A stretch of 22,574 bases of DNA from IMG/VR virus record IMGVR_UViG_3300027801_000180, positions 1 through 22,574 of that record; one strand, written 5' to 3'. The DNA is from a virus. The position numbers were made by a program, and so were the translations under genes. The notes under the pieces are model-generated. The model was not told where the DNA came from. It did no database searches and saw nothing but the letters and a program-made list of their open reading frames with translations. Positions 3,931-21,627 of the stretch are shown here, piece by piece; the stretch's first letter is position 1; the number at the start of each line of letters is the position of its first letter.

Positions 3931-4494
3931 TTAATAATTTTTTCTAATTTTGATTAATATGGATTTTATTTTAGCGAAATAGTCTTTGTCTGTGGCATAA
4001 GCGTCAAGTGTTTCTGTAAATCTAAAAGGGTCTGTAATACCTTTTTCTCTTAACTTTCTATATTCAGAAAATCCTTTACCATTGTTCAGTATATTTATAT
4101 AGTTTAATACACTATCACATTCATGTTTATAAACTTTTACTCCCCACTTCTTTGGTTTATTTGATGGTAACATATGTGGTTCTCTTAAATCATATGTTCT
4201 AATACCAAATAGATTTTTACCTTCTCTGGCAAATCTACTGTTTCCCCAACCAGACTCTAAAGCGGCCTGTGCTAGTAATACTTCTAAATTAACTTTCTCT
4301 ATATCGTTATGATAATAGACATGATGAACACACTGCTTCACATTATGTAAAAATTGTTTATTGTTAGTATGTTCGAATTTTGGTAATGATATGCCTTCTT
4401 CAGCAAGTGTATGGTAGTGTGACCATGTAAACCCACAAAAGGTTACAATGGTCGCCACCATTACAGTTCTAATTATTGCTTTTAGATTGCTCAA
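3931..4494 (-). CDS. membrane-anchored peptidoglycan glucosaminidase (Bax/FlgJ-like)
   Basis: A 187-residue protein. The N-terminus has positive residues, then a hydrophobic anchor at about 10-24, which would place the rest in the periplasm as a signal-anchor enzyme. Residues 68-187 fit the glucosaminidase family (PF01832): L-A-Q-A-A-L-E80-S-G-W-G with the catalytic Glu, N-L-F-G-I (94-98), and Y-A-T-D-x-x-Y (166-172). It would cut the glycan strand of peptidoglycan. The frame begins at TTG (4494-4492), directly after the upstream TAA and 9 nt after AAGGG. The first ATG (residue 12) would remove the positive residues before the anchor, so TTG is preferred. A SAR-type endolysin is a plausible role. 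Confidence 0.82.
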   Translation of the reverse strand: MSNLKAIIRTVMVATIVTFCGFTWSHYHTLAEEGISLPKFEHTNNKQFLHNVKQCVHHVYYHNDIEKVNLEVLLAQAALESGWGNSRFAREGKNLFGIRTYDLREPHMLPSNKPKKWGVKVYKHECDSVLNYINILNNGKGFSEYRKLREKGITDPFRFTETLDAYATDKDYFAKIKSILIKIRKNY

Positions 4495-4815: not shown

Positions 4816-5241
4816 TTATAAATCAAGGCCAATTCTATTTAACTTTGGTCTAAAACTGTAGAAAATCTTATTATGATTTCCCGAGTCACCTATATTAGCC
4901 ATTTGATATAGATGGACCATTTCGTGTCCTAAAGTTTCCACAAAATCTCTTTTATCTCTGTATTCAGGTAGCATTTCTAAATGAAATTGTCGTGTGCCTT
5001 TTCTTTTCCACTCCCAACAAATTACCTGACCAAAACAATATTTCTTACTTGAATCTCTATAAATTTTTTTAATTTGAATTTCGTTAAAAGGTGATAGTAT
5101 GTTATTAAACACTGACTTGTTAATAACAACAAAATATTTTTTAATGTCTTTATAGGTTGTCTTATATTTCTTACGAATAGACAAATCCCTTTTGATCATT
5201 CTTTTGGTTCTCATGTTATTGTTTATTACTCTCTTTGGCAT
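4816..5241 (-). CDS. SprT-like zinc metallopeptidase
   Basis: A 141-residue protein with the zincin motif H106-E-M-V-H110 and a third likely ligand H123 in G-N-H-N-K-x-F, as in the SprT-like family. The N-terminal 30 residues are very basic (MRTKRMIKRDLSIRKKYK), which suggests DNA binding. The family includes the DNA-protein crosslink protease SPRTN, and small SprT-like proteins are common in marine T4-like phages, but the phage substrate is unknown. The listed ATG overlaps the upstream secreted-protein gene by 26 nt and has AGAGGA 11 nt before it. An alternative ATG at 5214, 1 nt past that gene's stop, would give 132 residues and keep all motifs. Confidence 0.8.
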   Translation of the reverse strand: MPKRVINNNMRTKRMIKRDLSIRKKYKTTYKDIKKYFVVINKSVFNNILSPFNEIQIKKIYRDSSKKYCFGQVICWEWKRKGTRQFHLEMLPEYRDKRDFVETLGHEMVHLYQMANIGDSGNHNKIFYSFRPKLNRIGLDL

Positions 5242-5801: not shown

Positions 5802-6092
5802 TTATTTTTTAGTTTCTCTAGGAATATCTGTGCCATCAAATGGTATTAATTTGTAGTCGTGAATGATTTTATTAATGGCATTCTTCATATTGATATCAAT
5901 CATTTTTGTAAATTCACTATCAACTTGAATATTCTCTTTTATTTCTTTATTCATTTTTGCTATTTGTTTATAAGCAATATTTCTGACCATAGTAAGTGCC
6001 ATGGTATTCACTCTATCCACTGAATAGATTGGTTTCCTTACTGGTTTTGGATCTGCCACTGGTGGATGTTTATATTCTGTGCCTTTTTTCAT
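5802..6092 (-). CDS. small protein of unknown function, 96 aa (start corrected)
   Basis: The start chosen is ATG 6092-6090 (MKKGTEYKHPPVADPKPVRK), preceded by AAGGACACT. The open frame reaches 6143, but its first codons overlap the -10 at 6134-6139, so that part is not in the mRNA. The protein has a Pro/Lys-rich N-terminal 25 residues and a helical remainder with several Met and Ile, ending PRETKK. No cysteine, signal peptide or known motif. It is a single-gene unit between two early promoters. Its leader (6093-6143) is nearly identical to the leader of the next gene to the right (see the repeat entry). Confidence 0.7.
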   Translation of the reverse strand: MKKGTEYKHPPVADPKPVRKPIYSVDRVNTMALTMVRNIAYKQIAKMNKEIKENIQVDSEFTKMIDINMKNAINKIIHDYKLIPFDGTDIPRETKK

Positions 6093-6143
6093 AGTGTCCT
6101 TTTTGTTAGTATTTTTTGTCATATTATCTGTATATTGTATCAT
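6090..6143 (-). repeat. promoter/leader cassette, copy A
   Basis: 54 bp covering the start codon, ribosome site AAAAAGGACACT, leader and -10 region. It matches 6767-6820 at 50 of 54 positions with no gaps. Homology stops just upstream of the -10: the -35 and spacer differ, and the coding regions that follow are unrelated. Confidence 0.9.
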
Positions 6144-6162
6144 AGATTCGGTCTTTTGTCAA
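6134..6162 (-). promoter_or_regulatory. sigma70-type early promoter A (TTGACA-N17-TACAAT)
   Basis: Minus strand: TTGACA at 6162-6157, a 17-nt spacer, and TACAAT at 6139-6134 preceded by TGA (extended -10). RNA would start near 6127, giving a leader of about 35 nt with AAGGACACT before the ATG at 6092. Confidence 0.82.
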
Positions 6163-6169
6163 CCGGTTA

Positions 6170-6769
6170 TTATGCTGCCTTTTTAAGTTTAACTTCTTTA
6201 TATTCATAATGACTTAATACATCTTTTACTTCTTCATCATTTAATCTTCTCCATTCAGTACCACCGTTCATTTGAACAGATGAAGATGTTTTAATAAGCT
6301 TACCATTAATTTCTCTGTAAACACTTATTTTTTGTATCTCTTGGTTCTTCTTATATTTTTTCTTTAATAAGTTTTCTAATCTCATAATTTCAACTTTTGT
6401 ATGCCATTTAGTTGTAACTAATTCTAATTGTGTACCATAATGATACATTTTACCTCTTAGCGCTTTAAATCTTCTTCTCATATGATACTGAGAACTTGAT
6501 CTACCTATTTTATAGATTCCTTCGTTTAAAGGGTCTTTTATAAAATATAAAATCCATAACTTTTGATTATTAAAATCAACATGCTATAAAATCCATAACT
6601 TTTGATTATTAAAATCAACATGCTTTTTTTGATCTTCTAAACTTAACTTATGATACTCAACTGATTTGTTTTTCATAGTATTTTCCATAGTGTTCACTTC
6701 TAATTCTTGTTCTCTCAACTCGTTATATTTGTAAATGTCACTCATTACGTTTTTAGATAGTGTAGTCAT
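6170..6769 (-). pseudogene. GIY-YIG-superfamily-like protein (T5orf172/MUG113-like), interrupted by an in-frame amber codon
   Basis: The gene starts at ATG 6769 (MTTLSKNVMSDIYKY, SD AAGGACACT) and reads 61 codons to TAG at 6586-6584. The same frame then stays open for 137 codons to TAA at 6172-6170. The TAG lies at the junction of a perfect 39-bp (13-codon) tandem duplication; removing one copy gives a 186-residue protein with no stop. The region after the junction holds L-W-I-L-Y-F-I, then G-I-Y-K-I-G-R-S, an Arg-rich helix, M-R-L-E-N-L-L, and G-T-E-W-R-R-L. This spacing resembles GIY-YIG-type nuclease domains of the T5orf172/MUG113 kind. The duplicated HVDFNNQKLWIL lies just before and within the first strand. 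Possible states: true pseudogene, split gene restarted at ATG 6481 (no SD seen), amber read-through, or a reversible off state. Confidence 0.68.
6546..6624. repeat. 39-bp perfect tandem duplication (two copies)
   Basis: Positions 6546-6585 and 6585-6624 are identical over 40 bases with a period of 39. Each copy contains a small inverted repeat (TTGATT, 5-nt loop, AATCAA). The flanks diverge at once on both sides. The length is a multiple of three, so the frame of the GIY-YIG-like gene is kept, but the junction reads TAG. Confidence 0.95.
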
Positions 6770-6820
6770 AGTGTCCTTTTTGTTAGTGTTGTTTATCATA
6801 ATATCTGTATATTGTATCAT
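6767..6820 (-). repeat. promoter/leader cassette, copy B
   Basis: Second copy of the 54-bp leader/-10/ribosome-site cassette, 677 bp from copy A, with four substitutions. It serves the GIY-YIG-like gene, whose coding sequence is unrelated to that behind copy A. Confidence 0.9.
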
Positions 6821-6838
6821 ATCCACAGCAGGAGTCAA
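6811..6838 (-). promoter_or_regulatory. sigma70-type early promoter B (TTGACT-N16-TACAAT)
   Basis: Minus strand: TTGACT at 6838-6833, a 16-nt spacer, and TACAAT at 6816-6811 with TGA just before it. Its -10 and leader match promoter A; its spacer and -35 match promoter C (24-nt block 6817-6840 against 6911-6934, one mismatch). RNA would start near 6804 and give a leader of about 35 nt to the ATG at 6769. Confidence 0.82.
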
Positions 6839-6904
6839 GCCCTTATTTTCTGACTTTTTTGTGTTTTTATTGTTTATTAGTGTTTTTTTGTTTAACATAG
6901 GTAT

Positions 6905-6932
6905 ATAATATCATATCCACGGCAGGAGTCAA
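6905..6932 (-). promoter_or_regulatory. sigma70-type early promoter C (TTGACT-N16-TATTAT)
   Basis: Minus strand: TTGACT at 6932-6927, a 16-nt spacer, and TATTAT at 6910-6905 with TGA before it. It lies in tandem 94 bp upstream of promoter B. The expected RNA start falls at about 6898, which is also the first base of an ATG in frame with the downstream GIY-YIG-like gene. Upstream, A-tracts at 6936-6940, 6943-6949 and 6954-6960 could act as an UP element. Confidence 0.72.
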
Positions 6933-7028
6933 GCGAAAAATGAAAAAAAGCGTAAAAAAAGTGTTATTTTTAGTGTATGTTCTTGTTTTGTTCTCAAACC
7001 GAAGCTATTTTTAGTTCTAATTTTTGAT
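6933..7028. other. divergent intergenic region between early (left) and late (right) modules
   Basis: No open frame worth calling. It holds three A-tracts next to promoter C and two copies of TATTTTTAGT (6965-6974 and 7007-7016). I see no strong hairpin or terminator. Early genes run left from here and late virion genes run right. Confidence 0.6.
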
Positions 7029-7036
7029 TATAAATA
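7029..7036 (+). promoter_or_regulatory. T4-type late promoter (TATAAATA)
   Basis: An exact late octamer at the head of the rightward virion module. Only 7 nt separate its last A from the ATG at 7044, so RNA would start about 2 nt before the start codon and carry no SD. No better plus-strand promoter is visible upstream. Confidence 0.75.
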
Positions 7037-7043
7037 TAATATA

Positions 7044-7202
7044 ATGAAAAACTGTCAAAATTGCGGTCATTCTTGTCATTGTGGCATGACTTGTTATCAG
7101 GATCTTAAAGACGGCGACGGAAAAGACGTTGTTGTTGATTGTTGTAAGAGTTGCCGACATGATTCGTATATTGACGAAGAAAAATATAACATAGAAAGTT
7201 AA
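7044..7202 (+). CDS. small cysteine-rich, probably metal-binding protein, 52 aa
   Basis: A 52-residue acidic protein with eight cysteines in its first 37 positions: C4-x-x-C7, C11-x-C13, C17, then C33-C34-x-x-C37, plus His at 9, 12 and 39. The spacing suggests one or two zinc sites, or a metallothionein-like cluster. A CxxC/CCxxC split by a 15-residue loop resembles a zinc ribbon. It ends DEEKYNIES. It is the first gene of the late block, directly behind a late octamer. It has no SD, so initiation may be leaderless. The next gene follows after 3 nt. The function is unknown. Confidence 0.75.
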   Translation: MKNCQNCGHSCHCGMTCYQDLKDGDGKDVVVDCCKSCRHDSYIDEEKYNIES

Positions 7203-7205
7203 AAA

Positions 7206-7460
7206 ATGAAAAAAATGAGACTATTTAAGTTTTGGAATGAGACCGGAACTGAAAAAGAGAAAGAATCAATGAGTTTAAAGAAAGCAGTCATATCCGTTCA
7301 AGGCGATTTCAAAGAAAATGTCATAGGTGTTGAATATATGAGCAAAAAAGGCAAACAAATTATCGATTCTGTAAAAATACCTATGGGTAGAAAAATTAGA
7401 CAGTCAATAATAATAGAAAAAAAGAAAGCGGCGGCAAAACTCGCTCAAAGTAGTAGATAA
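7206..7460 (+). CDS. small basic protein, 84 aa, unknown
   Basis: An 84-residue basic protein (MKKMRLFKFWNETG) with a beta-rich middle (KKAVISVQGDFKENVIGVEY) and a Lys/Ala helical tail (KKKAAAKLAQSSR). No cysteine and no known motif. Upstream bases AGAAAG are at best a weak SD. Its stop overlaps the next ATG as TAATG (7458-7462), so translation is probably coupled. An alternative start at the second Met (residue 4) would change little. Role unknown; its location among late genes suggests a virion or assembly function. Confidence 0.68.
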   Translation: MKKMRLFKFWNETGTEKEKESMSLKKAVISVQGDFKENVIGVEYMSKKGKQIIDSVKIPMGRKIRQSIIIEKKKAAAKLAQSSR

Positions 7461-20754: not shown

Positions 20755-21627
20755 ATGGCAGTAAAATTTATAGCAAAAGACGATACACTAGAAGACTTTA
20801 GACTGGCGTTTAACGATCAGTCGGCAAACAGTTTTGGTGATATCGCTAACCTAAGTGGTTCGATTAGTTCAACTAATTTAGTTGACGCTATGAACGAAAC
20901 TATTAATATTGCAACAAATACTGCTGGTTTCATATTGAGAGATAGTACATCTACCACACAACAAATTGGTGGTGGTAATACATTAAACGTTGTAGGTGTA
21001 ACAAGCGAAATAACAGCAGTAGTAAGTGCTACCGATACATTAACAATTGGATTGCCTGATGATGTAACAATCACTGGTAATTTAACTGCCTCTGGAACTG
21101 GAACACACAGTTTAGGAACAATTCAAGTAAGTGGAAACACTTTATCATCTTCAAACGCAACAACAATTACTGTCAATGATATATTAAGAGCAAATACAAT
21201 TGAATCTCAAACAGGTTTGGTATCAATATTCGAAACCAATGGTTTCCCAGAGATACAATCAAATAGAGGTGATAAAGTTTTATTGTTTGACGCTTTTCCA
21301 GTCTTCAATAATGGTATTGCATTTGAAGGAACAACTCCTGATGATTTTGAAACAACAGTTTTAGTAACCGACCCAACTGCTGATAGAACAATTACACTTG
21401 GAGATGAATCAGGAACAGTAATAACGACAGGTAGTGTTGGCGCTATAACAGGCACAATGATTACTACCGGTTCATTAGTTACAGGTAATTATGCTAACGA
21501 TTCAATTACACTCGACAAGATGGCAGATGACTCTGTAGGACAAGCACAACTGAAAGATGTTGTTGATTTACAAATACAAAACTCATCTGGTGGTATTCTT
21601 AAACAGATATTTGGTGCTGGTTCGTAG
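20755..21627 (+). CDS. tail-fibre-like structural protein
   Basis: A 290-residue protein. The N-terminus (MAVKFIAKDDTLEDFRLAFN, then F-G-D-I-A-N-L-S) resembles the attachment domain of fibre-like proteins in marine T4-like phages. The remainder is low-complexity beta sequence rich in Thr, Ser, Gly, Ile and Val (DDVTITGNLTASGTGTHSLG), which suits a trimeric beta-helical shaft. The end, Y-A-N-D-S-I-T-L-D-K-M-A-D-D-S-V-G-Q, is a recurring fibre motif. At 290 residues it is short for a receptor-binding fibre, so it may be a fibre base or a short fibre with the tip encoded elsewhere. No chaperone is recognised next to it. Confidence 0.78.
   Translation: MAVKFIAKDDTLEDFRLAFNDQSANSFGDIANLSGSISSTNLVDAMNETINIATNTAGFILRDSTSTTQQIGGGNTLNVVGVTSEITAVVSATDTLTIGLPDDVTITGNLTASGTGTHSLGTIQVSGNTLSSSNATTITVNDILRANTIESQTGLVSIFETNGFPEIQSNRGDKVLLFDAFPVFNNGIAFEGTTPDDFETTVLVTDPTADRTITLGDESGTVITTGSVGAITGTMITTGSLVTGNYANDSITLDKMADDSVGQAQLKDVVDLQIQNSSGGILKQIFGAGS

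Follow-up and report, generated by a model that had tools for sequence, protein, structure and literature searches.

A perfect 39-bp tandem duplication interrupting a probable GIY-YIG nuclease gene in a T4-like pelagimyophage

A small phage gene that is cut in two by a stop codon, where the stop itself is made by a perfect duplication, raises the question of whether the gene is broken, can be switched on and off, or only appears interrupted. The window, by which we mean the whole stretch of 22,574 nucleotides that was analysed (IMG/VR record IMGVR_UViG_3300027801_000180), carries such a gene on the minus strand, with a perfect 39-bp tandem duplication at 6546-6624 (Table 1). The two copies are identical, and 40 consecutive bases match at period 39, the run ending at 6624. 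The frame starting from the ATG at 6769 reaches the TAG of the copy junction after 61 codons; apart from this stop it continues to a TAA at 6170, and removal of one copy gives a frame of 186 codons. The initial annotation of this DNA had described the coordinates, the 40-base match, the in-frame TAG and the 186 codons, and all were right when checked against the sequence. We consider it likely that a dispensable nuclease-like accessory gene is present in the window as a recent loss-of-function allele, produced by an illegitimate 39-bp tandem duplication.

Table 1. Positions of the features of the interrupted gene and its surroundings in the window.
Feature	Positions	Strand	Basis or remark
Copy 1 in gene direction	6585-6623	-	codes for the end of the 61-codon fragment
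Copy 2 in gene direction	6546-6584	-	codes again for HVDFNNQKLWIL, the lead-in to the GIY-YIG core
In-frame TAG from the copy junction (TA of copy 1 + G of copy 2)	6584-6586	-	
5' fragment, the part translated: ATG to TAG, 61 codons, without catalytic motif	6584-6769	-	
3' fragment without usable start, contains the entire MUG113/GIY-YIG domain	6170-6583	-	
ORF from the sole in-frame ATG after the stop, 103 codons	6170-6481	-	
MUG113 (PF13455) match, profile positions 1-72 of 73	6209-6514	-	profile search
AGGA ribosome-site-like sequence before ATG 6769	6774-6777	-	sequence reading
Sigma-70-like extended -10 promoter, TTGACT-16-TACAAT	6811-6838	-	consensus match only
Substitution against L003 adjoining the repeat, silent (TAT/TAC)	6545		twin comparison
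Adjacent double substitution against L003, Tyr in window, Phe in twin	6317-6318		twin comparison
Next gene downstream, marker of the accessory hot spot	5802-6143	-	found in 34 relatives without the nuclease gene

In the rest of the window the longest period-matched run is 13 bases (periods 20-120), and Markov-1 random sequences of similar dinucleotide make-up gave longest runs of 10-12, so a run of 40 is far beyond chance. Each copy contains a small inverted repeat (TTGATT-TTAAT-AATCAA), as had been pointed out before, and the RNA fold across the copy junction is unremarkable (z = -1.6). When the single-copy allele is read, the ends of the duplicated unit have only one base, an A, in common, which implies that the duplication was illegitimate and did not arise through slippage between pre-existing repeats.

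The single-copy allele is present in another contig, IMGVR_UViG_3300027687_000190 (L003, the twin), with an uninterrupted gene of 186 codons, which is the kind of relative that the initial annotation had predicted. Along the 6,889 bases that twin and window have in common there are one 39-base gap and four substitutions (over 6.85 kb), and the two are most simply seen as haplotypes of one virus population in which the duplication is one allele. At this divergence, 0.06%, a stretch of 40 bp should contain about 0.02 differences; the perfect match of the copies is therefore uninformative on maintenance, and youth is a sufficient explanation. The earlier proposal of a very recent event thus agrees with the twin, and the proposal that the repeat is kept identical loses its ground. 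Three of the four substituted positions, or two of the three substitution events, fall in the nuclease-like gene, in 600 of about 6,890 bp, a clustering that hints weakly at relaxed constraint or at a mutation made together with the duplication. The gene is carried by these two contigs only, one for each state, and the direction of change is given by parsimony between them, not by an outgroup.

The frame of the window encodes what is probably a GIY-YIG nuclease, judged from a domain score barely above the cut-off. The 137-aa part gave 22.6 bits with MUG113 (curated cut-off 22.3, E 1.7e-4 over the whole library), and a six-frame search gave 22-23 bits in both haplotypes, in keeping with the GIY-YIG-like gene first proposed. 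A Pfam search of the joined protein had been suggested as a check; MUG113 was recovered, with the full 186-aa protein at 20.1 bits and just under the cut-off, and T5orf172 (PF10544) gave no match in window or twin at E up to 1. The motifs follow in the order LWILYF-IKDPLNEG-IYKIGRS, an Arg-rich helix, an E..LKKK helix and NGGTEW. This layout resembles a MUG113-like protein of a T4-like marine phage contig (L152), which is 27% identical over 113 residues and has the KIG core, E..LK.K and NGGTE motifs in common with the window protein; two distant phage relatives can be aligned to it at LYF-x9-YKIG, R86/R87 and E119, the catalytic residues being assigned by eye. In L152 the gene for the distant MUG113-like protein (1450-1857) adjoins an RNase H / 5'-exonuclease-like gene.

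Other searches added little to this picture. Protein searches of phage records and GTDB genomes gave no relative, PHROGs and NCBIfam gave no assignment, a PDB sequence search gave two matches only, both insignificant, and a profile-guided scan with a two-sequence alignment (A3) recovered only the twin. The single-sequence AlphaFold2 model of the protein had a pLDDT of 45 and was unusable. A degenerate DNA pattern for GIYKIGRS was rejected, since its hits were chance matches in unrelated frames, nearly all of them one 13-aa stretch between stops.

The stop truncates the protein immediately ahead of the LYF of the GIY-YIG core. The ATG at 6481 comes only after the YF...IYKIG motif and lacks a Shine-Dalgarno-like sequence; initiation there would leave the core out, and no plausible restart restores it. 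The sequence of events was probably as follows. This pelagimyophage lineage gained a small gene of early type, equipped with a sigma-70-like promoter and coding for a GIY-YIG nuclease similar to MUG113/T5orf172, which may be a free-standing homing endonuclease. The site of entry was a hot spot that has the divergent promoter region on one side and a conserved small gene on the other. A single illegitimate event of replication or recombination, for which the ends offered 1 bp of homology, then duplicated 39 bp in tandem. The frame was kept, but the TAG created at the junction ends translation after 61 codons, ahead of the catalytic core. We infer the loss of activity, the homing character and the dispensability of the gene. 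The fresh knock-out that was among the first suggestions is thereby favoured, with the stop before the core and the frame of the twin open. If so, an accessory phage nuclease gene has been caught at its inactivation within one wild population, where a near-clonal twin keeps the intact allele.

An alternative, which we regard as unlikely, is an artefact of assembly or library preparation, where the duplication would be absent from the real phage or confined to a chimeric molecule. The window is a short metagenomic fragment, and the sole other contig with the gene has one copy. The 1.07 Mb of related phage contigs that were scanned yielded no other perfect tandem duplication (unit 20-300 bp), an absence that is to be read as a lower bound because assemblers may collapse such repeats. 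However, the 79-bp tract fits one short read, and an assembler would need some read holding the junction string. There is also a substitution against the twin at the base adjoining the repeat, so a distinct haplotype was probably the source of this part of the assembly.

It is a good deal less probable that the repeat is a reversible on/off switch, selected for phase variation, in which slippage of the copies toggles the nuclease. Single and double alleles do exist in near-identical phages, a perfect tandem duplication that keeps the frame is able to revert with precision, and the listed mechanisms of phase variation include recombination between tandem duplications (PMC4235727). Against this, one event was seen once, and the junction string GTTATGGATTTTATAGCATGTTGAT is absent from all other IMG/VR contigs, in a search where records very near the window were possibly omitted. 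With 1 bp shared between its ends, the single-copy state has no built-in repeat for re-creating the duplication. The gene is absent from relatives, youth accounts for the identity of the copies, and the substitutions cluster in the gene as they would under weak constraint, although this last point is weak. The selected switch that the initial annotation had considered is therefore not favoured by a gene found in two contigs, one per state. The more specific idea, that the duplication with its junction stop toggles an anti-competitor GIY-YIG nuclease within one phage population, is about as improbable. Exact reversion of the knock-out allele by slippage or recombination between the copies would be expected in principle and needs no regulated switch. 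That a repeat of this kind is reversible does not in itself speak for a selected switch. A high-rate interconversion of the two alleles, if true, would make this a phage phase-variation system, but the present data do not demand that.

Read-through of the amber codon, which would give a protein of 199 residues with the linker 13 residues longer and the core intact, appears very improbable. Copy 2 restores the full lead-in after the stop, so that the domain would be complete, but TAG is an ordinary stop for other genes in the window. It had already been noted that the genes ending at 2983 and 2832 stop at TAG, and that amber is hence not globally reassigned; the gene ending at 21627 does so as well. 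No tRNA was found in the window or the twin, and the scan of the relatives yielded no tRNA with a CTA anticodon, so the suppressor that the read-through proposal needs was not seen, and the gene of the twin has no stop to read through. Two separate functional genes are the least probable reading, for although a 103-codon ORF starts at ATG 6481, this start has no Shine-Dalgarno-like site, the ORF lacks the Tyr/Gly core motifs, and the twin has one continuous gene and not two halves that are always separate.

The closest known systems are the T5orf172/MUG113 putative homing endonuclease genes of vibriophage ICP1. T5orf172 is a subfamily of GIY-YIG nucleases (PMC10448857), and MUG113 and T5orf172 are closely related profiles. 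The T5orf172 genes of ICP1 are variably present between close phages and often broken: they show frameshifts and variable stops, and recombination between internal repeats has altered them, also by in-frame deletion (PMC10448857). Like the gene in the window, they are small GIY-YIG-superfamily genes with variable presence and inactivation (PMC10448857). The inactivation in the window is by gain, a tandem duplication, and not by a loss between repeats. The window gene showed no identifiable zinc-finger DNA-binding repeats, and homing is only putative here. The most economical account is a recent knock-out of a dispensable nuclease gene by the illegitimate duplication, an event of the class described for the T5orf172 genes of ICP1 (PMC10448857).

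A search of the literature on phage tandem duplications with reversible stops gave nothing direct. In fission yeast ssp1, microhomology-mediated reversible tandem duplications with premature stops are described (Dan et al. 2021, cited in PMC13207564). There, as is probable in the window, a gene is knocked out by a short tandem duplication within it, and an exact return to the single copy is possible; the difference is that the window phage has only 1 bp of microhomology and a single occurrence. Among pelagimyophages, Pelagibacter phage HTVC008M also has a GIY-YIG-superfamily protein, a T5orf172-like frame directly after a clamp-loader-like gene (NC_020484.1, 95150-95404). By alignment this protein is about 25% identical to that of the window, and it matches T5orf172 better than MUG113.

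The window itself is from a T4-like pelagimyophage, its gp6-like baseplate protein being 67% identical to that of Pelagibacter phage Mosig. The interrupted gene is in a variable stretch upstream of gp25; in Mosig and HTVC008M the corresponding place, flanked by the gp5-like hub and gp25, has variable small genes. The downstream neighbour occurs together with upstream divergent genes (some of 7044-7460, PAAR and gp25) in 34 related contigs, and the nuclease gene is absent from them. In several of these relatives (L041, L042, L062, L065, L067) the neighbour comes directly after one promoter with nothing inserted, and others (L036, L037, L038, L039, L066, L070) have one or two different small genes inserted. 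This implies that the nuclease gene is optional cargo of a promoter-proximal hot spot, and the locus marks where pelagimyophages exchange small early genes. A site that is filled in some relatives and empty in others, as is typical of a homing gene, is thus found here, but other small genes also turn over, so the pattern is not specific to homing. Taken over the whole hot spot (window 5802-7044, L036-L071), from the divergent promoter to the conserved small gene, there are 0, 1 or 2 inserts.

A promoter-leader module, made up of an extended -10 sigma-70-like promoter and its leader region, is present three times in the window, at 6102-6163, 6779-6840 and 6873-6934, with copies 69-81% identical. 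Two of the three stand immediately before small genes that share one Shine-Dalgarno context, and the start at ATG 6769 has AAAAAGGACACT just ahead of it. It therefore seems that the accessory gene moves with its own promoter module. The ATG at 6143 of the 5802-6143 ORF is inside a promoter-leader, and its true start is likely the ATG after AAAAAGGACACT, so that the protein begins MKKGTEYK.

Elsewhere in the window, an imperfect 27-bp tandem repeat (80%) at 1619-1676 is inside a small ORF (1605-1856), and the twin has this repeat too. Accessory genes at 2019-2594, 3931-4494, 4816-5241 and 105-575 resemble pyrimidine dimer DNA glycosylase, glucosaminidase, SprT-like and M15 peptidase genes.
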